The notes: generated by a model from the letters alone, not told the origin. DNA of 64,000 bases from Nocardioides donggukensis (GCF_014842875.1 NZ_JACYXZ010000001.1:186001-250000), one strand, 5' to 3'; positions 7,296 to 24,760 are shown, counted from the stretch's first letter. Made by a program: numbers and translations.

Positions 7296-9805
7296 GACCG
7301 CAGCCTCTCGTTGCCGGGGTCGAAGGCCGGGGTGGCGTCCGGGCTGATCACGGTGACCGGGTACCGCTCCTCCATGTAGGAGACCGCGAGCTCGGTGCCC
7401 ACGGCCGCGAGGTCGGGGGGCAGGTAGGCCATCAGCAGGTGCCGCCCGAGGCTCGGCGCGGAGCCGGCGGAGGTGACGTAGGGGTGGAGGCCGTGCCCGT
7501 CGGTCAGCTCGCCGCCGTCGCGGGTCAGGATCGGCTCGCCGCCGAGCATGAAGCGCCGCTGCCCGGAGGCGGAGGTGTGGTCGTCGACCGCCATCGTGCA
7601 CAGCACCGCGGCCGGCGGCTCGGTGCGCTGCTTGAGGTAGGCGTCCTTGCCGACGAAGTCGGCCGACTTCACCTTGGGCCGCTGCATGCCGGCCTCGACG
7701 ATGGTCCGCTCGGCGTCCAGCTCGGCGCCGAAGGCGCGGTAGCCCTTCTCCAGCCGGCCGGTGCCGCCGTAGACGCCGATGCCGACCGGCACCGCCCCGT
7801 AGCCGTCCCCGGCCTCGTGCAGCAGGCTCCAGAGCCGGGCGCCCTGCTCCATCGGCAGGTAGAGCTCCCAGCCGAGCTCGCCGACGTAGGAGATCCGGGA
7901 GGCGAGCACGGACAGGCTTCCGATCGAGATGTCACGACAGGTGAGGAAGCCGAAGCCCTCGTGGCTGATGTCGGCGGTGGTCAGCTCGCCCAGCACGTCG
8001 CGGGCCCGCGGCCCCCACAGCCCGATCGTGGTGTACGACGAGGTGAGGTCGACCACCGTCGCCGCCCACCCGGAGACGTGCCGGGCGAACCAGGTCCGGT
8101 CCGCCATGCCGTGGGCGCCACCGGTGACGACGCGGAACCGGTCGTGGCCCAGGCGCATCACGGTGAGGTCCGCCCGGAAGCCGCCGCGCCCGTCCAGGAC
8201 GGGGGTGTAGACGACCCGCCCGTCGGCGACGTCGACCTGGGCCACCACGATCGACTGCACCGCCTGGCAGGCCTCCGGGCCGACCACGTCGAAGATCACG
8301 AACGCCGAGAGGTCGACGATGCCGGCCCGCTCGCGCATCGCGAGGTGCTCGGCGTTGATGATCGGGCTCCACCAGCGGCTGTCCCACTCGTGCTCGCGCG
8401 GCAGGACCGCGTCGCCGTAGTCGCCGAGCAGGGCCTCGTTGGCGGCGTACCACTGGGGCCGCTCCCAGCCGGCGACCTCGAAGAAGACCGCGCCGCGGGC
8501 GACCTGGTCGGTGTGCATGGGTGCCAGCCGCTTGCCGCGGTCGGAGGCCCACTGCTCGCCGGGGTGGACGATGCCGTAGGTCTTGTTGAAGGCCTCCGAG
8601 GTGCGGGCCCGGACGTGCTCGCGGGTGCGCTGGTGGGGGTGGAAGCGGGCCACGTCGCTGTGGTGCAGGTCGATCTCCGGGTGGCCGTGGGTCATCCACT
8701 CGGCCAGCGCGCGGCCGACACCCGGCCCCTCCTTGATCCAGACCGCCGCCGCCGACCAGAGCCCGCTCACCTCGGGGGTCTCGCCCAGGACCGGGGCGCC
8801 GTCCGGGGTGAGCGAGAGCAGGCCGTTGATCGCGTAGCGCATCTCGGCGCCGTCGGCACCCAGCGCGTCCGGCATCAGGTCCAGGGCCTGCTCGAGCTGG
8901 GGGTCGAAGTCGTCGGGGGTGAAGGGCATCTCGGTGGGGCTGAGCCGGGCCTGCTCGATCGAGGGGATCTCGTCGGGGTCGTGCAGGATCGCGCGGTGGG
9001 CGTAGGAGCCGACCTCCATGTCGGCGCCGTGCTGGCGCTCGTAGCAGAAGGTGTCCATGTCCCGGATGATCGGGAACGAGATCTCGCCCTCGGTGCCGGC
9101 CAGCTGGGGGATCGGGCCGACGCTGATCATCTGGTGCACTGCGGGGGTGAGTGGGATCGCGGCCCCCGCCATCGCCGCGATCCGCGGGCTCCACACGCCG
9201 CAGGCGACGACGACCACGTCGGTGGCGATGTCGCCGCCGGTGGTGCGGACCCCTCGGATCGCGCCCCGGTGCACGTCGAGGCCGGTGACCTCGACGGTCG
9301 GCACCACGGTCACGGCGCCGAGCTCCTGGGCGGCCTCCCGCATCAGGGTGCCGGCGCGCAGCGAGTCCACGACGCCCACCGACGGCGTCCAGAACGCCCC
9401 CAGCAGGTCGCCGGTCTCCAGGAACGGCACCCGCTCACGGACCTGCTCCGGGGTGACCAGCTCGCTCTCGATGCCCCAGGCCCGGGCGCTGGACATCCGC
9501 CGGCGCAGCTCCTCCATGCGGGCCTCGGTCCGGGCGATCTCGAAGCCGCCGGACCGGGTGAAGACGCCGAGCTCCTGGTACTGCCGGACCGAGTCGAGGG
9601 TCAGGTCGGTGATCTCGCGGGAGTGGTCGACGGGGAAGATGAAGTTGGAGGCGTGGCCGGTCGAGCCGCCCGGGTTCGGCAGGGCCCCCTTGTCCAGCTG
9701 GACGATGTCGCGCCAGCCGAGGCGGGCCAGGTGGTGCACGAGGCTGTTGCCGACGATGCCGGCGCCGATCACCACGGCACGGGCGGTGCTGGGAACGGTG
9801 GCCAT
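7292..9805 (-). CDS. Dimethylglycine oxidase/dehydrogenase-like flavoprotein with C-terminal GcvT folate domain
   Basis: An 837-residue protein with an N-terminal FAD-dependent amine oxidoreductase domain (GxGxxG at residues 14-19; 'GGSTGHASNF' with H51 where dimethylglycine oxidase carries its covalent FAD histidine) and a C-terminal GcvT-type folate domain ('SYVGELGWELYLP', 'RLEKGYRAFGAELDAE'). By established family chemistry it oxidises an N-methyl amine and transfers the one-carbon unit to tetrahydrofolate as 5,10-methylene-THF. Length and order match dimethylglycine oxidase (about 830 residues). ATG 9805 is chosen over an in-frame upstream start because GGGAGG precedes it. The downstream coupled ETF genes argue for a dehydrogenase rather than an O2-using oxidase. 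The exact N-methyl substrate is not proven. Confidence 0.85.
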   Translation of the reverse strand: MATVPSTARAVVIGAGIVGNSLVHHLARLGWRDIVQLDKGALPNPGGSTGHASNFIFPVDHSREITDLTLDSVRQYQELGVFTRSGGFEIARTEARMEELRRRMSSARAWGIESELVTPEQVRERVPFLETGDLLGAFWTPSVGVVDSLRAGTLMREAAQELGAVTVVPTVEVTGLDVHRGAIRGVRTTGGDIATDVVVVACGVWSPRIAAMAGAAIPLTPAVHQMISVGPIPQLAGTEGEISFPIIRDMDTFCYERQHGADMEVGSYAHRAILHDPDEIPSIEQARLSPTEMPFTPDDFDPQLEQALDLMPDALGADGAEMRYAINGLLSLTPDGAPVLGETPEVSGLWSAAAVWIKEGPGVGRALAEWMTHGHPEIDLHHSDVARFHPHQRTREHVRARTSEAFNKTYGIVHPGEQWASDRGKRLAPMHTDQVARGAVFFEVAGWERPQWYAANEALLGDYGDAVLPREHEWDSRWWSPIINAEHLAMRERAGIVDLSAFVIFDVVGPEACQAVQSIVVAQVDVADGRVVYTPVLDGRGGFRADLTVMRLGHDRFRVVTGGAHGMADRTWFARHVSGWAATVVDLTSSYTTIGLWGPRARDVLGELTTADISHEGFGFLTCRDISIGSLSVLASRISYVGELGWELYLPMEQGARLWSLLHEAGDGYGAVPVGIGVYGGTGRLEKGYRAFGAELDAERTIVEAGMQRPKVKSADFVGKDAYLKQRTEPPAAVLCTMAVDDHTSASGQRRFMLGGEPILTRDGGELTDGHGLHPYVTSAGSAPSLGRHLLMAYLPPDLAAVGTELAVSYMEERYPVTVISPDATPAFDPGNERLRS

Positions 9806-9816
9806 GGAACCTCCCG

Positions 9817-9833
9817 GTTGCGTCACTCGCAAC
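9817..9833. promoter_or_regulatory. Palindrome GTTGCG-N5-CGCAAC upstream of the flavoprotein gene
   Basis: A perfect 6-bp inverted repeat, GTTGCG TCACT CGCAAC, sits 11 bp upstream of the flavoprotein ATG and 72 bp downstream of the iclR-type gene on the same strand. IclR-family regulators bind short palindromes of this size. It is a candidate operator, overlapping the leader and ribosome site; binding is inference. Confidence 0.5.
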
Positions 9834-9904
9834 GGAACGCGCGATGCGAGACGAATCAAGCCTCACCGGCGGACCGGTGGCTGTCAAGGGTCGCGGCCGT
9901 GGGA

Positions 9905-13141: not shown

Positions 13142-13296
13142 GCCACGACCAGTTTCGTTATACGCACCCGACGTGGTCAGGGTAGGACGCGACCACCCTC
13201 GCGAGAAAGAGGTGCGAGGCATCGATTTTCTGGCATGTCGGAGCGCCGGGTCGGGTGCTGGGTGGCGGCCTCGGGCGACCCCCCCCGCCAACGGGG

Positions 13297-14772
13297 CTAC
13301 AGGTAGCGGGCGGTGCGCTCGGCGAGCGGGCCCGGGCCCGTGGACAGCAGCGCCGCGAGCTCGAACTCCAGGACCCGGCCCATCCGCCGGCAGAACTCCT
13401 CCGGCTCGTCCGCCGCGTCCGGCTGCTCGGCGACGATCCGGTCGACGATGCCGCGCTCGTGCAGGTCGATCGCCCGCACCAGCTGGGCCCGCGCCATCTC
13501 CGGCGCGTGGTCGGTGTCCCGGTGCACGATGGCACTGGCCCCCTCCGGCGGCAGTGGCGACAGCCAGGCGTGCTGGGCGGCGACCAGCCGGTCGGCCGGG
13601 AGCAGGGCCAGGGCGCCGCCGCCGTTCCCCTCGCCGAGCATCAGGCACAGGGTCGGCGCGTCCAGCGTCACCAGGTCCGAGAGGCAGCGCGCGATCTCGC
13701 CGGCCAGCCCGCCCTCCTCGGCCTCCACCGAGAGCGCCGCCCCCTGGGTGTCGATGACCGTGACCAGCGGCAGTCCGAGCTCGGAGGCCAGCCGCATCCC
13801 GCGGCGGGCCTCGCGCAGCGCCTCGGGCCCCATCGGGTGCTCGGGGGTCTGGCCGCGGCGGTCCTGGCCGAGGAACACGCACGGGGCATCCCCGAACCGG
13901 GCGAGCGCGATCAGCAGCCCCGGGTCCGACTCGCCCTCGCCGGTGCCGTTGAGCGGGACCACGTCGGAGGCGGCGTACCGGAGCAGGCGTCGGACGCCGG
14001 GGCGCTGGGGGTTGCGGGACCGGGTGACCACGTCCCAGGCGTCCACGTCGGGGACGGGCAGGGTCACGGACTCGGCGACGGGCGCGATCCCGGTGCGGGG
14101 TGCCAGCAGGATCCGCAGCGCCCGGTCGAGGATGTCGGCGATCTGCTCCGGCGGCACCACCGCATCGATGATCCCGTGCGCGTAGAGGTTCTCAGCTGTC
14201 TGCACGCCGTCCGGGAAGGCCCTCCCGTAGAGCGCCTCGTAGACCCGGGGGCCGAGGAAGCCGGTGAGCGCTCCCGGCTCGGCGACCGTGACCTGGCCGA
14301 GCGAGCCCCAGGACGCCATCACCCCGCCGGTGGTGGGGTTGCGCAGGTAGACGAGGTAGGGCAGGCCGGCCGCCTTGTGCGCGGCGACGGCGCCGCTGAT
14401 CCGGACCATCTGCACGAAGGCCGGCGTGCCCTCCTGCATGCGGGTGCCGCCGCTGGTCGGGGCCGCCAGCAGCGGCAGGCCCTCCGCCGTCGCGCGCTCG
14501 ACCGCGGCCACCAGCCGGTCGGCGGCGTCGCGCCCGATCGAGCCGGCGAGGAAGCCGAACTCGCAGACCACGACCGCCACCCGACGGCCGCGCATCAGGC
14601 CCTCGCCGCTGAGCACCGACTCATCGACGCCGCTGCGCGCCTCGGCCGCCGCCAGCTCGGCGGCGTACTCGGGGCTGATCCCCGTGCGTCGCGGCGGCAC
14701 GTCCCACGAGGTCCAGGAGCCCTCGTCGAGGACGAGGTCGATGAGGTCGGCGGCGGAGAGGCGGTCGGTCAC
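13297..14772 (-). CDS. accD3: Acetyl/acyl-CoA carboxylase carboxyltransferase, beta-alpha fusion (AccD3 type)
   Basis: 491 residues carrying both crotonase-like halves of the carboxyltransferase in one chain. The N-terminal AccD-like half has 'MRGRRVAVVVCEFGFLAGSIG', 'PTSGGTRMQEGT' and 'NPTTGGVMASWG'. The C-terminal AccA-like half has 'GMRLASELGLPLVTVIDTQG', 'GEGNGGGALALLPADRLVA' and 'LSPLPPEGASAI'. This architecture and length match mycobacterial AccD3. It would transfer carboxyl from carboxybiotin to an acyl-CoA; no biotin carboxylase is in the window. The start is GTG 14772, overlapping the upstream epimerase stop by GTGA, so the two are coupled. Confidence 0.88.
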   Translation of the reverse strand: MTDRLSAADLIDLVLDEGSWTSWDVPPRRTGISPEYAAELAAAEARSGVDESVLSGEGLMRGRRVAVVVCEFGFLAGSIGRDAADRLVAAVERATAEGLPLLAAPTSGGTRMQEGTPAFVQMVRISGAVAAHKAAGLPYLVYLRNPTTGGVMASWGSLGQVTVAEPGALTGFLGPRVYEALYGRAFPDGVQTAENLYAHGIIDAVVPPEQIADILDRALRILLAPRTGIAPVAESVTLPVPDVDAWDVVTRSRNPQRPGVRRLLRYAASDVVPLNGTGEGESDPGLLIALARFGDAPCVFLGQDRRGQTPEHPMGPEALREARRGMRLASELGLPLVTVIDTQGAALSVEAEEGGLAGEIARCLSDLVTLDAPTLCLMLGEGNGGGALALLPADRLVAAQHAWLSPLPPEGASAIVHRDTDHAPEMARAQLVRAIDLHERGIVDRIVAEQPDAADEPEEFCRRMGRVLEFELAALLSTGPGPLAERTARYL

Positions 14773-17604: not shown

Positions 17605-19302
17605 ATGGTGTCACAGACCGATGTCCCCCCGGCCGCCTCGTTCCTCGACCGGCACCGCGACCGCCTCGACGGCGCGAAGGCCGCCTCCGCGGGGCGGACC
17701 TGGTTCTCGGCGTTCGACGAGTCGCCGTCCCCGCGCGTGTACGGCGAGGGCGCTGCCGCCGAGGGCAAGGCCGCGTTCGAGGCGCACCTCGGCACCGCGT
17801 TCCCGCTGACGACGCCCGGCGCCGAGGGCGACGTGGCGACCGAGACCTCGCCGTACGGCTTCGAGCTCGGGGTGCGCTACCCCCGGGCCCACGACGTCGA
17901 CGCCCTGCTGGAGGGGGTGTCGGCGGGTGCGCGGGCCTGGCGCGACGCCGGGCCGGACGGGCGCACGGGCGTCTGCCTCGAGATCCTCGACCGGCTGCAC
18001 GGCCGGGTCTTCGAGCTCGCCAACGCGGTGCAGCACACCAGCGGCCAGGCGTTCGTGATGGCCTTCCAGGCCGGCGGCGCGCACGCCCTGGACCGGGCCC
18101 TGGAAGCGATCGCCTACGCCCACACGGAGATGACCCGCACGCCGGCGACCGCGGTGTGGGAGAAGCCCGGCCCCAAGCCGGGTGCCGAGCCGCTGCGCAT
18201 GGAGAAGACCTTCACCGTCGTGCCGCGCGGCACCGCGCTGGTCATCGGCTGCAACACGTTCCCGACCTGGAACTCCTGGCCCGGCCTGTTCGCGAGCCTG
18301 GTGACGGGCAACCCGGTCGTGGTCAAGCCGCACCCGCAGGCGGTCCTGCCGCTCGCGATCACCGTGCAGGTCTGCCAGGAGGTGCTCGCCGAGGCCGGCT
18401 TCGACCCCCGGCTGGTCACGCTGGCCGCCGAGGCGCCCGACGACAGGCTGGCCTCCACGCTGGCGGTGCACCCGCAGATCCGGCTCGTCGACTACACCGG
18501 CGGCAACGCCTTCGGCGACTGGCTCGAGGAGAACGCCCGCCAGGCGATCGTCTTCACCGAGAAGGCCGGCGTCAACACGGTGGTGGTCGACTCGACCGAC
18601 TCCTTCCGTGCCATGTGCGGCAACCTCGCCTTCTCATTCGCGCTGTACAGCGGCCAGATGTGCACCGCTCCGCAGAACGTCTACCTGCCCGCGTCGGGCA
18701 TCCGAACCGAGGACGGCACCAAGTCCCCGGCCGAGGTGGCGCAGGGCATCGGCGCAGCGTTCGAGAAGCTGCTCGGCGACGACGCCCGCGCCGTCGAGCT
18801 GCTCGGCGGGGTCGTGAACTCCGGGGTACTCGAGCGGCTCGCGGAGGCCCCCTCCAAGGGCGAGGTGCTGGTGCCCTCGCGCGAGGTCACGCACCCGGCG
18901 TACGACGACGCCACCGTCCGCACCCCGACCCTGGTGGGACTCACCGCCGCCGACGCGGAGGTCTACGAGAGCGAGTGCTTCGGGCCGGTCGGGTTCCTGA
19001 TCTCCACCGATGGCACCGACGAGTCGATCGACCTCTTCCGCGACACCGTCCAGCGTCGCGGGGCGATGACCGCCGCGGTCTACTCGACCTCCGACGAGGT
19101 GGTGCAGCGGATGCGCGAGGCGGCGCTCGACGCCGGGGTCGCGCTGAGTGAGAACCTGCACGGCGCGGTCTTCGTCAACCAGTCGGCCGCCTTCTCCGAC
19201 TTCCACGGCACCGGGGCCAACCCGGCCGCGAACGCGTCGTACACCGACGGCGCCTACGTCGCGAGTCGGTTCCGGGTCGTGCAGTCCCGACGCCACATCT
19301 GA
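17605..19302 (+). CDS. paaN: Phenylacetic acid degradation protein PaaN (aldehyde dehydrogenase family)
   Basis: 565 residues from ATG 17605. It belongs to the PaaN branch of aldehyde dehydrogenases: 'VPRGTALVIGCNTFPTWNSW', 'GNPVVVKPHPQAVLPLAITV', 'IVFTEKAGVNTVVVDSTD' and the cysteine region 'ALYSGQMCTAPQNVYLP' (C353). In phenylacetate catabolism this family oxidises the ring-opened semialdehyde or a related aldehyde with NAD(P). No other paa gene is nearby, so it is either the edge of a dispersed regulon or has a related role. A longer in-frame N-terminus to 17500 is unlikely because it would include the palindrome and has no similarity. Confidence 0.88.
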   Translation: MVSQTDVPPAASFLDRHRDRLDGAKAASAGRTWFSAFDESPSPRVYGEGAAAEGKAAFEAHLGTAFPLTTPGAEGDVATETSPYGFELGVRYPRAHDVDALLEGVSAGARAWRDAGPDGRTGVCLEILDRLHGRVFELANAVQHTSGQAFVMAFQAGGAHALDRALEAIAYAHTEMTRTPATAVWEKPGPKPGAEPLRMEKTFTVVPRGTALVIGCNTFPTWNSWPGLFASLVTGNPVVVKPHPQAVLPLAITVQVCQEVLAEAGFDPRLVTLAAEAPDDRLASTLAVHPQIRLVDYTGGNAFGDWLEENARQAIVFTEKAGVNTVVVDSTDSFRAMCGNLAFSFALYSGQMCTAPQNVYLPASGIRTEDGTKSPAEVAQGIGAAFEKLLGDDARAVELLGGVVNSGVLERLAEAPSKGEVLVPSREVTHPAYDDATVRTPTLVGLTAADAEVYESECFGPVGFLISTDGTDESIDLFRDTVQRRGAMTAAVYSTSDEVVQRMREAALDAGVALSENLHGAVFVNQSAAFSDFHGTGANPAANASYTDGAYVASRFRVVQSRRHI

Positions 19303-19336
19303 GTCCCGCCGATCCAGGGTCGAGCGCGCCTCGCCC

Positions 19337-19582
19337 TCGGTGGTTGAGGGGCCAGCGTCGCGGTATCGGTGGTTGAGGAGCGAGCGCCTCATTATCGGTG
19401 GTTGAGGGGCCAGCGCCGCGCCCTCGGTGGTTGAGGAGCGAGCGCCGCGCCATCGGTGGTTGAGGAGCCAGCGCCTCGCCCTCGGTGGTTGAGGAGCGAG
19501 CGCCGCGCCATCGGTGGTTGAGGAGCCAGCGCCTCGCCCTCGGTGGTTGAGGAGCGAGCGCCAGCGAGCGTCTCGAAACCAC
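19337..19582. repeat. Eight-copy 29-bp tandem repeat array
   Basis: Units starting with TCGGTGGTTGAGG begin at 19337, 19366, 19395, 19424, 19453, 19482, 19511 and 19540, exactly 29 bp apart. Two variants alternate (…GAGCGAGCGC and …GAGCCAGCGC), so units 4/6 and 5/7 are identical and give a 58-bp higher-order period. The last unit runs into GAGCGTCTCGAAACCAC. There are no spacers, so it is not CRISPR. Read on the minus strand the element starts GTGGTTTCGAGACGCTCGCT and ends in CTCAACC. Confidence 0.92.
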
Positions 19583-19760
19583 GCGGTGCTCTGGTGCGCG
19601 TGCACAACGACGTACAGCCGCCGGGCGGACTGGCCGCCACCGCCTTCGGGGGCGGGCGCTGCACGTAGTTCTGCCCGTGGCCGCGACGCCCTTGCTCCAG
19701 CCCCGGGCATGCCGCTGCCCCCACCCGATGCTGCCCAGGGTGGGGTGAGGGGCGTGGTCC

Positions 19761-21254: not shown

Positions 21255-21317
21255 AGAGACCACGCTAGGGGAAGCCACTGACAGTCGGATGCGATCGGGA
21301 ACCCCTTATGCACAACG

Positions 21318-21534
21318 GGTTTCGACTCGCTCGCGGGGCTCGCGGCTCAACCGGCGGGGGCTCGCGGGGCGACCGGCGGTGGTGGGTTTCGACTCGCTCG
21401 CGGGGCTCGCGGCTCAACCGGCGGAGTGTGGGGCTCGCGGCTCAACCGGCGGCCACGGGGCTCGCGGCTCAACCGGCGGGGGCTCGCGGGGCAACCGGCG
21501 GAGTACGGGGCTCGTGGCTCATCCACCACGGCCC
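21318..21534. repeat. Degenerate repeat array, about seven units, inverted relative to the 19337 array
   Basis: Units like GGGGCTCGCGGCTCAACCGG recur at about 21335, 21357, 21402, 21430, 21457, 21479 and 21506, with two copies of the longer head GGGTTTCGACTCGCTCGCGG (near 21318 and 21385). The order TTTCGA…CTCGC…CTCAACC matches the minus-strand reading of the 19337 array, so the two arrays face each other across the DUF222/HNH gene. Confidence 0.8.
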
Positions 21535-21539
21535 ACGGC

Positions 21540-22952
21540 TCAAGGGGCCGACATGGTGGCGAACGCCAGCCCCTGCTCGACCGCCCGGGCGAACGGCGCT
21601 GACGTGGTCGGCGTGTAGTCGGCGACCACGCGGCGTACGTGTGCCTCGAGCTCCCCGGCCGTGGCGGCGTCCCGGATCCCGGCCAGGACCTGCTCGAGGG
21701 CCCAGTGGTTGTGCCCGACCCGGGCGTGGTCGACGGCGTCCCGGCGCTCCCCGCCCGGAGGCTCCGAGAAGAGCGGGTACGCCTCGAACAGGCCCCCGCC
21801 CGGGCGCAGATCCGCCGCGTCGGGCTCGTGGTCCGGGTGCGCCAGGTGGAAGGCGTGGCCCGCGGCGTAGTCGAAGGGGAACCGGAGCACGAAGGCTCGG
21901 CAGAACGGGCACGGGCAGTCCCACCGCCGGGTCGGGTCCGCCCCCAGCCAGGCGGCGCTGCGGCGGAGCCGGATCTTGAGGTACGACGGGGTGGTCACGT
22001 ACAGGACCCCGTCGCGCAGCGCGTCCTTGATCGGGCTGGTCGCGTCGAAGGTCAGCTCCGTCGTCGGATCTGCGGCGAGGGCGACCAGCGGCAGCATGAT
22101 CGGTGCGCCGAGGCCGAGGTGGTGCAGCCCGGCCATGGGCCGGCCGGTGGCGGCCCGGTAGCCGTGGTGCAGGCCGCGGGCGGCCAGCACGGTGCGGGTG
22201 TAGCGGTTCGGCAGCCTGCCCCCGAAGTCGATCCGGCGACCGGCGACCCGGACGTGGTCGGTGTAGTTGCCGTCGGCCATGTAGGCGCCGAAGCCGGCCG
22301 CGACCCGGGAGAGGCCGTGCTCCCCGAAGATCCGCCCGGCGTCGACCGCCGTGTCGTAGGACTCCGCGGAGGCGACCGGGTAGTAGGACTCCCGCAGCCC
22401 GGCGGGGAGGTCGGGCAGCCGGGCGGCGGCCCGACGCGCCGTGCCGGCGTTGAGGCGGGCCCAGTCCCGCCGTCGTCGCCCCGTGTAGGCGCGCTCGAGG
22501 TCGAGCGCCAGCCAGCAGGCGGGGGTGATGTCCTCGACGCCGATCAGGATCGTGGGGTCCAGCCCGAGCTGGTCCGGCAGACCCCTCTCCCCGTCGCCGG
22601 CGAGGCGTCGGGCCTCCTCGCGGGCCGCGACCGACAGCGCGAGGTAGTCACGGGTGAGGTCGTCCGGGAGGTCGCCGGGCCGCACCGACCGGCCGAGGCG
22701 GTCCTCCACCTCGCGCAACCGCGCGCGCATTATGGTCGCCCGTCCCCGCAGCGCCGAGGCGACCTGGCCGATGAGCGCGAAGTTGCCGTTGTCGGCCATC
22801 AGCGGCAGCCCCCGGCCGCGGACCTGCGCGGCCAGCCCCGCCAGCTGCGGGGTGGCGTTGTTCGGGGCCAGCAGGTAGCCGAACGGGTGCGTGGCGGCCA
22901 GTGTCTCCTCGGTGAACGTGTCCGGTGAGAGGTTGTAGACGAAGCGCGCCAC
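21540..22952 (-). CDS. TGT-superfamily (tRNA/DNA-guanine transglycosylase-like) protein
   Basis: 470 residues starting at GTG 22952. The C-terminal half has TGT hallmarks: 'HHLGLGAPIMLPLVALA', a 'LTFDATSPIKDALRDGVLY' segment in the position of the catalytic-aspartate strand, 'SYLKIRLRR', then a CxCxxC motif (CPCPFC) and a later His ('GHNHW') as expected zinc ligands. The N-terminus has 'LPLMADNGNFALIGQ' in place of the usual TDSGGFQ. Known TGT family members exchange guanine for a 7-deazaguanine in tRNA, or in DNA (DpdA). It is too divergent to be ordinary queuine TGT, no 7-deazaguanine biosynthesis gene is near, and its operon partners at 22974 and 23303 are uncharacterised. Function inferred from motifs only. 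Confidence 0.65.
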   Translation of the reverse strand: MARFVYNLSPDTFTEETLAATHPFGYLLAPNNATPQLAGLAAQVRGRGLPLMADNGNFALIGQVASALRGRATIMRARLREVEDRLGRSVRPGDLPDDLTRDYLALSVAAREEARRLAGDGERGLPDQLGLDPTILIGVEDITPACWLALDLERAYTGRRRRDWARLNAGTARRAAARLPDLPAGLRESYYPVASAESYDTAVDAGRIFGEHGLSRVAAGFGAYMADGNYTDHVRVAGRRIDFGGRLPNRYTRTVLAARGLHHGYRAATGRPMAGLHHLGLGAPIMLPLVALAADPTTELTFDATSPIKDALRDGVLYVTTPSYLKIRLRRSAAWLGADPTRRWDCPCPFCRAFVLRFPFDYAAGHAFHLAHPDHEPDAADLRPGGGLFEAYPLFSEPPGGERRDAVDHARVGHNHWALEQVLAGIRDAATAGELEAHVRRVVADYTPTTSAPFARAVEQGLAFATMSAP

Positions 22953-22973
22953 GGTGACCCCACGCCTGCGGCG

Positions 22974-23303
22974 TCAGCCGCGCTTGTGGTCGTTGAGGCA
23001 CGCGAGGTACGCCGCTTGGGCGGCGGCCGCCTGCTCGGCGGCAGCGCCGGTGCCGCGCGCGGAGTCGCGGGCGTCGCACCACGAGGTCACCGCCTCCCAC
23101 GCCGAGGACACGCAGGCGGGAGCGGCGGCCAGTCCGGCGGCCACCCCGGCGGCGAAGCCCCCGGCAGCCGCCCCGCACACGGAGATCGCCTGCAGCGTGT
23201 CGGTGCGGGCCTCCTGCAGCTCGTCCTTGGTCTCGGCGGCGGCCTCCTCGGCCCGCTCGCGGGCCTCCTCGGCCTCCTCGGCGAGGGCGTCACAGGCAGC
23301 CAT
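22974..23303 (-). CDS. Small Ala/Glu-rich protein with coiled coil and glycine-zipper-like segment
   Basis: 109 residues, not recognised. Residues 1-40 form a charged coiled coil (MAACDALAEEAEEARERAEE and onward). Residues about 40-65 are hydrophobic Ala/Gly-rich ('CGAAAGGFAAGVAAGLAAA'), able to form a glycine-zipper or membrane-associating helix. Five cysteines are spread along the protein. ATG 23303 overlaps the stop of the upstream gene by one base (TGATG), and the TGT-like gene starts 21 bp downstream, so it is the middle gene of a tight three-gene operon. A role as adaptor or membrane anchor is only a guess. Confidence 0.7.
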   Translation of the reverse strand: MAACDALAEEAEEARERAEEAAAETKDELQEARTDTLQAISVCGAAAGGFAAGVAAGLAAAPACVSSAWEAVTSWCDARDSARGTGAAAEQAAAAQAAYLACLNDHKRG

Positions 23304-24760
23304 CACAGGTTCTCCGTTCGGGTGAAGGGGGTGAGGATCAGCTCGGCGGCCCCGCGGGTCGCGTCCTCGAAGTCGTCCGGGCCGGCGGAGTGGGTGCCGA
23401 GGGACCAGTCGAGGTGCAGGCGCCCGCGCCACGGGTGCAGCCAGGGTGTCGCGGAGAACCACAACCGGGCCTGCCACGACTCCCGGGACAGGGCGGTCGG
23501 GGCGAGCACATCGACCTCGACCCCGGGACCTCCGTCCAGCCGCTCCGAGGCGGATCGGTACCTGCCGTGGGCGACGGCGTAGCCGTCCAGGGTGAGCCCC
23601 GCGTGCGCGGGATGCACGAACAGCAGCGAGAGCTCCACGCTGCTGCCGCTCGAGGGGTCGAGGAGCGTGACCCGGCCGACCAGCTTGCCGTCCGGCTCGC
23701 GGGCGGCGCTCGCCGCGGTCACGAACCCGGCGACCTCGACGAGGTCGCCGTCGTCGTCGGGGCCGAGGTGGGCGATCTCGGTGTTGCGCCCGTCCGGCAG
23801 TGCCGCGGCGAAGGCGAGCCCCGCGGTGTCCGTCAGGTCGGCCACGGCGGGCGGGAGCACCCGCAGGGCGAGGTCCAGGTCGAGTCGGGTGCCGACTGCG
23901 GCGTCGGCGACGGCGCGGCGTACGAGTCGCCCGCCGCGGGCCAGAGCCCGGCCGACCCGCTCCGCGTCGGCGTTGCGGCCCGCCGACCGCAGCGTCCGGG
24001 CGAGCGCCGCTCCCTCGGCCTGCGCGGCCGCGAAGTGAACCAGCAGGTCCTGCGCCCGGCGCGCCAGCGCCACTGCCGCGGCGGCGATCTCGTCACGCTC
24101 GCCTCCGGCACACGCGTCGAACAGCGAGCGCTCGGCGGTGGTGAGGGCGCCGTCCACGCGGTCGACGATCGAGCGCAGCGTCGCCAGCCGACGCTCGGCC
24201 CCCGCCGGGTCGGGGTCCGTGGGTCGAGTGGTGTTCAGGGTGCCGTGGACCACGCCGAGGAGGCCTCGAGTCACCGCGGCCACGCAGAGGCCGGCCTCGA
24301 CGTCGGTGCCGGGGGCCTGCCCCAGCAGGTCGGCGAGCCGCTCGCCCTCCTCGAACGCCGACGGGTCCACGGCGCCGGCCGCCACCTGGTCCAGCAGTGG
24401 CGCGGCGCGCGCGGCCAGACCCGCGTCGCTCTCCTGGAGCAGCGCACGGATCCCCTCGGCCTGGGCCTCGTGGTCGGGTCGCGCGGCCAGCTGACGGAGC
24501 CCGTCGAGGACCTCGCCGACCCCCGTCAGCGCGTCCTCGGCCAGCGTGCCGTCGCTGGAGCGCACGGCTCGCACGGCCACGGCGTGCCCCTGTCCCGCAC
24601 CCAGCAGGGTCAGCGAGGTTCCGAGCAGGGCCGGCCAGTCGGCGTCCCGCGCGGCCTGGCGCTGTGCAGCGAGCAGGTCGCCGAGGACCCTGCCGCTGTG
24701 CCGCGAGATCCCCGGCAGGGGGACCGCCCGCAACTCCCGAAGGCCCTCGTCCGCGACCAT
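23303..24760 (-). CDS. Hypothetical protein, first gene of the TGT-like operon
   Basis: 485 residues from ATG 24760, preceded by GAGAGGA. I do not recognise it. The first two thirds are Ala/Leu/Arg-rich and probably all-helical (about 1-320). The last third (about 325-485) turns to beta-rich sequence: 'VEVAGFVTAASAAREPDGKL', 'VGRVTLLDPSSGSSVELSLL', 'WQARLWFSATPWLHPWRGRL', reminiscent of an OB-like or Ig-like barrel with many aromatics. No signal peptide or membrane segment is seen. It is translationally coupled to the small protein downstream. Composition and codon use match the host. Confidence 0.75.
   Translation of the reverse strand: MVADEGLRELRAVPLPGISRHSGRVLGDLLAAQRQAARDADWPALLGTSLTLLGAGQGHAVAVRAVRSSDGTLAEDALTGVGEVLDGLRQLAARPDHEAQAEGIRALLQESDAGLAARAAPLLDQVAAGAVDPSAFEEGERLADLLGQAPGTDVEAGLCVAAVTRGLLGVVHGTLNTTRPTDPDPAGAERRLATLRSIVDRVDGALTTAERSLFDACAGGERDEIAAAAVALARRAQDLLVHFAAAQAEGAALARTLRSAGRNADAERVGRALARGGRLVRRAVADAAVGTRLDLDLALRVLPPAVADLTDTAGLAFAAALPDGRNTEIAHLGPDDDGDLVEVAGFVTAASAAREPDGKLVGRVTLLDPSSGSSVELSLLFVHPAHAGLTLDGYAVAHGRYRSASERLDGGPGVEVDVLAPTALSRESWQARLWFSATPWLHPWRGRLHLDWSLGTHSAGPDDFEDATRGAAELILTPFTRTENL

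Follow-up and report, generated by a model that had tools for sequence, protein, structure and literature searches.

Three tightly packed open reading frames occupy positions 21540-24760 on the minus strand of the window, by which we mean the whole 64,000-nucleotide stretch of Nocardioides donggukensis DNA that was analysed. The first, P0002 (24760-23303), encodes 485 aa comprising a helical N-terminal part and a C-terminal OB-fold domain, the latter placed by the predicted model and Foldseek at residues about 333-431 (window about 23468-23764, minus strand). It is followed on the same strand by P0003 (23303-22974), whose 109-aa product is a predicted Cys-bearing, Ala/Gly-rich helical hairpin, and by P0001 (22952-21540), which has a GTG start and encodes a predicted 470-aa enzyme of the tRNA-guanine transglycosylase (TGT) superfamily. 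The stop TGA of P0002 overlaps the ATG of P0003 by one base (TGATG) and 21 nt lie between the end of P0003 and the start of P0001, an arrangement that fits one translationally coupled unit. With a GC3 of 0.92-0.95 they match the neighbouring genes, so base composition gives no sign of recent arrival. The original prediction had claimed ORFs of 485, 109 and 470 aa here, and they are found at exactly the positions given; the motifs that it read in P0001 (MADNGNF, FDATSP, CPCPFC and a later His, in HN) are likewise all present.

Sequence family searches of the three proteins covered Pfam, NCBIfam, PHROGs, PADLOC and the PDB (phmmer/hmmsearch). P0001 drew no family match in Pfam, NCBIfam, PADLOC or PHROGs up to E 10 and nothing meaningful among PDB sequences. 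A different member of its alignment gave one stray match (PilJ, E 0.32), and PF01702 scored just 7.7 bits on the window's own genome, at the C-terminal helix of P0001. The protein falls below every Pfam and NCBIfam threshold and does not reach the curated cut-offs of the TGT models (PF01702, NCBIfam); on that score it is not a canonical TGT. Across the three proteins these searches gave no usable match, and the weak similarities that did turn up (methane monooxygenase, BRCA1-A, myoglobin, DUF883, viral fusion proteins) were put down to composition.

An AlphaFold2 model of P0001, built from a five-sequence alignment, has a mean pLDDT of 88.8 and a pTM of 0.87. When it was searched against the PDB with Foldseek, all 50 of the matches listed, with E values starting at 1.7e-4 and prob 1.00, were tRNA-guanine transglycosylases. 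The best VIA-align score was to the archaeosine TGT of P. horikoshii (ArcTGT, 1iq8), with Z 24.9 over 310 residues, and Z was about 22.5 against the Z. mobilis TGT. The match to ArcTGT takes in the catalytic domain alone (residues 33-355 of 577), so nothing in P0001 points to the RNA-binding domains that ArcTGT has at its C terminus. In BFVD, a viral fold library, the second-ranked match was R9TGF0 from phage nt-1, which we take to be the DpdA2 for which nt-1 is named as the source (PMC6884629). The TGT fold that had been claimed is thus the one that structure prediction returns. By its predicted TIM-barrel fold and active site, P0001 is a member of the TGT superfamily, within which it forms a new clade that has diverged deeply and whose three-gene setting has not been described; our search of the open-licence literature found no description of such a module.

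The joint alignment of the five module proteins with four canonical TGTs leaves eleven positions invariant, namely D54, G56, F58, F302, D303, P307, C346, C348, C351, H414 and N415, and because these residues are shared with genuine TGTs the motifs cannot be put down to chance. HHalign of P0001 with TGT brings LGLGAP, FDATSP, CPCPFC and HNHW into register, at an E value (0.055) that would be weak alone. D303 aligns with the Asp280 nucleophile of TGT and D54 with its acid/base Asp102 (roles as in PMC6165067), while Cys346, Cys348, Cys351 and His414, all invariant, are the predicted zinc ligands. The catalytic Asp and zinc-site signatures first noted in the sequence are therefore those that P0001 holds in common with canonical TGTs.

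The base pocket is probably less well preserved. Among the TGT pocket residues Tyr106, Asp156 and Gln203 (PMC5395182), the stacking Tyr106 has F58 in its place and E140/D141 fall at the Asp156 position. Barrel strand 5 of P0001, as assigned by strand order in the model, ends in PVASA where TGT has IIQGG with Gln203, so that the invariant base-reading glutamine appears to have been lost; since strand order offers no counterpart for it, one cannot take for granted that the base is of the guanine type. The RNA-reading PTRNARNG of TGT is also replaced, by SPIKDALRDG. Taken as a whole, the alignment suggests that P0001 has kept the chemistry and altered the reading of its substrate.

The AlphaFold2 model of P0002 is helical over about 310 residues and then forms a C-terminal beta-barrel, with model strands at 340-416 and a pLDDT of about 65-80 for this domain; beyond it pLDDT is mostly below 60 and the model was left uninterpreted. 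Foldseek matched the barrel to the OB domains of RPA (3dm3), the MCM N-terminal domain and AspRS (prob 1.00, E about 1e-2). The two actinobacterial subfamilies of P0002, those of the window and of Cellulomonas, aligned in HHalign at E 5.9e-4 precisely over the OB domain, and the P0002 profile matched the OB domain of a DnaE from a distantly related member of the same phylum at E 6.4e-5. As modelled, the C-terminal domain is a five-stranded OB-fold, and P0002 is predicted to be a nucleic-acid-binding protein. Its N-terminal 310 residues have no recognised relatives in the families searched.

Nor does any part of P0003 have a recognised relative in the families searched. Its Cys residues lie at 4, 43, 64, 76 and 102, and the pairs 4/102 and 43/64 are near-symmetrical around one turn, an arrangement that would suit a disulfide-stapled helical hairpin. 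Near-symmetrical pairs are also present in all four P0003 relatives. The chance probability of the symmetry is about 0.04 to 0.25 per sequence, and it should accordingly be read as a lead and not as proof.

A scan for further copies (genome_contigs, 84,980 species) found just four: in a Propionibacteriales MAG (L006; 69% in the genome scan), in a deltaproteobacterial MAG (L007; 46%), and in the isolates Cellulomonas carbonis (L008; 48%) and Cellulomonas endophytica (L009; 46%). All three genes occur together at each of the five loci, which span two phyla. The order is OB protein, small protein, TGT in the window and L006, and TGT, OB protein, small protein in L007 to L009. P0002 has a counterpart at every locus, although in L007 the link is weaker and rests on position or synteny, length and pattern. 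The P0003 counterparts, also present in five of five, share an N-terminal and a C-terminal Cys and a Cys-flanked Ala/Gly stretch, with low pairwise significance, and that of L007 was matched mainly through synteny, length and pattern. The coupling of the enzyme to two partners, as originally proposed, therefore extends to every locus found, and no copy of the enzyme was seen without them. None of the window's tested flanking genes was matched at the other loci, so to all appearances the module goes no further than these three. With all three genes kept together at five of five loci, in two orders and with no further gene found in common, we consider from this comparison that they form a real, rare, laterally moving and co-inherited module.

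Searches closer to the known hosts added no real copy to those already known. They took in 150 genomes from the family to which the window belongs, 395 from its class and 396 from its phylum, together with 150 from the Cellulomonas family and 297 from the deltaproteobacterial phylum. Two weak A2 matches in Cellulomonas relatives (21-22 bits, each with an internal stop) were judged to be chance. Phages, plasmids and IMG/VR (including tblastn against phages and plasmids) yielded no copy of P0001, and a viral search yielded none of P0002. Two observations fit lateral gain. In a genome of the same genus without the module, the two genes that flank the site (aldehyde dehydrogenase and maleylpyruvate-isomerase-like) are separated by 965 bp, whereas the window has 6.9 kb between them. 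The L007 module lies between the copies of a diverged direct repeat (9720-9840 and 13648-13764, the best stretches about 90% identical), which corresponds to the 5' end of a gene that fuses a nitrilase with a cytidylyltransferase. The L007 repeat looks as if an insertion had brought its own copy of the start of the target gene. Integration beside a tRNA was considered and gained no support, as the other loci have no tRNA and the window's sole tRNA is 13 kb away.

An HNH-type gene and repeat arrays had been reported next to the three genes, and both are there. The gene (21278-19761) encodes 505 aa; its product carries an HNH-like motif in the C-terminal part (CVFPWCTRPARSCDADHVRPYDPDG...CRRHHRLKTHGAWT) and has no Pfam family match at E<=1. 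GC-rich tandem arrays of 27-29-bp units flank it on both sides, at window positions 19297-19586 and 21317-21501, the units of the second array containing ...GCTCAACCGGCGG.... Arrays and gene look like a unit independent of the TGT module. That they form part of the module could not be upheld: the HNH gene is missing within ~10 kb either side of the other module loci, and for this reason gene and repeats are best regarded as bystanders outside the module.

No queuosine or preQ0 synthesis genes lie near the module, as had been noted, and the lack extends genome-wide: canonical TGT, a clear QueC, QueD and YhhQ were all not found in the window's genome, which is 100% complete. The same four were not found in the draft genome of C. 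endophytica. The C. carbonis genome has a QueC-like gene, the Propionibacteriales MAG has QueD, and the deltaproteobacterial MAG has TGT, QueC and QueD; the preQ0 transporter YhhQ is absent from all five host genomes. The incoming base is therefore probably not home-made preQ0 or preQ1, the window's host being without that pathway, and the module would seem to be independent of a home-made supply in at least two hosts, with the proviso that the genome of C. endophytica is a draft.

Comparison with known TGT-type systems places P0001 close in fold and distant in context. It shares with bacterial and archaeal TGTs (PF01702) the TIM-barrel TGT fold (Z 22-25), the Asp102/Asp280 pair (D54/D303), the CxCxxC and HN zinc site, and a stacking residue, here Phe58. 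It differs from the canonical enzymes in having about 20% identity to them in the joint alignment, large extra helices between strands 3 and 4, a Cys351-His414 stretch of 62 residues as against 25 in the TGT of L010, fixed OB and hairpin partners, and hosts without a Q or archaeosine pathway. To our knowledge all characterised TGT-superfamily enzymes handle 7-deazaguanines. DpdA and DpdA2 resemble P0001 in being strongly divergent members of the superfamily with a small accessory cluster. However, the phage 9g-type DpdA is without CxCxxC and comes with preQ0 genes, whereas P0001 keeps the TGT zinc site; on these grounds P0001 is not a 9g-type DpdA, and the original suggestion of a DpdA-type enzyme is not borne out. 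Neither tblastn against phages and plasmids nor the PADLOC and PHROG models gave any similarity to DpdA. Genes for preQ0 synthesis, or else ParB-like/DUF328 partners, accompany the enzyme at Dpd and phage loci (PMC6884629, PMC12839542), whereas the module has neither, nor does it have DpdB or DpdC. TGT domains are found in the defence systems Dpd and BRC (BREX-related capture; PMC12839542). Like the module, BRC occurs as sparse cross-phylum clusters, some of its loci having a TGT domain (PMC12839542), but none of the three genes found in common between the module loci belongs to the BRC core (PglZ, BrxC-like DUF6079, STAND NTPase, HerA and DUF4007). In Microbacterium phage Megan (L029, 1-1473) two adjacent queuine tRNA-ribosyltransferase genes of the DpdA type, tandem paralogues, are followed by a QueC-like gene.

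We infer the activity, target and base donor of P0001, and the roles of P0002 and P0003, as follows. In the manner of the TGT ping-pong reaction, Asp303 of P0001 would attack C1' and expel the old base, giving a covalent enzyme-nucleic acid intermediate, and Asp54 would activate the incoming base. The OB domain of P0002 probably presents a single-stranded target region, and P0003 probably either tethers the complex to a partner or a membrane or acts as its effector. On balance we think it probable that the module carries out base exchange on single-stranded nucleic acid by P0001, with P0002 presenting the target and a donor base that is probably not home-made preQ0 or preQ1. That the enzyme inserts a non-7-deazaguanine (or scavenged) base, guided by a dedicated OB protein and a Cys-stapled hairpin protein, is put forward tentatively.

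A role in defence is possible but a guess, and we are doubtful of it: an OB-guided TGT-like enzyme would act on invader nucleic acid, with the hairpin protein as a membrane-active effector. The sporadic cross-phylum spread of compact, co-inherited genes, the small protein with its hydrophobic Ala/Gly stretch and the known TGT domains of Dpd and BRC (PMC12839542) would all agree with it. However, that stretch is only moderately hydrophobic in the window's P0003 (maximum KD19 1.67), phage or plasmid copies were not found, and PADLOC gave no more than a single match among the three proteins, at E 0.52. The tested flanking genes at the other loci include no defence gene, the sole PADLOC match among them being a generic cold-shock domain, and the defence or signalling system suggested at the outset thus gains nothing from its neighbours.

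Less likely still are two readings that turn on the base itself. Loss of the base-reading Gln could have left P0001 as a glycosylase of nucleic acids, toxin-like or repair-like, whose action creates abasic sites and puts in no new base. The retention of the nucleophile and acid/base Asp while the Gln203 position (by strand order) has changed, and a window host without a known 7-deazaguanine donor source, are consistent with such an enzyme, which we nevertheless consider unlikely. The stacking Phe58 and the acidic E140/D141 at the Asp156 position are kept, suggesting that a base is still bound; moreover the covalent intermediate of TGT is released by the incoming base, and we know of no TGT that hydrolyses it efficiently. 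Least likely in our view is salvage-type modification, in which hosts no longer able to make Q would use the module to supply their tRNA with a queuine-like base that has been scavenged. The fold and zinc site are those of tRNA-type TGTs and an archaeosine TGT is the best structural match, but that match stops short of the C-terminal RNA-binding domains, TRNARNG has given way to SPIKDALRDG and the base pocket is probably different. The lack of YhhQ in all five genomes also speaks against salvage, as does the presence of QueC and a canonical TGT in the deltaproteobacterial host.

A TGT-fold module conserved in hosts without a 7-deazaguanine pathway implies one of two things not described so far, a donor base or a way of using TGT chemistry, and base exchange by P0001, which we prefer, may produce a modification so far undescribed. 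The module would also bring its own OB-fold nucleic-acid adaptor. As its proteins escape the libraries searched here, it would go unflagged by annotation and defence-finding pipelines built on them. The two isolates, C. carbonis and C. endophytica, make it experimentally testable now. Just upstream of the TGT-like gene of C. carbonis (L008, 9764-9902) is a tandem array of 11-bp units of the GTGCCGCCGCC / CAGTCGCAGCG type; an array of this type was not found at the C. endophytica locus. Directly past the module in C. carbonis, at 13271-14281, lies a gene for a 336-aa protein made up of four cold-shock domains.
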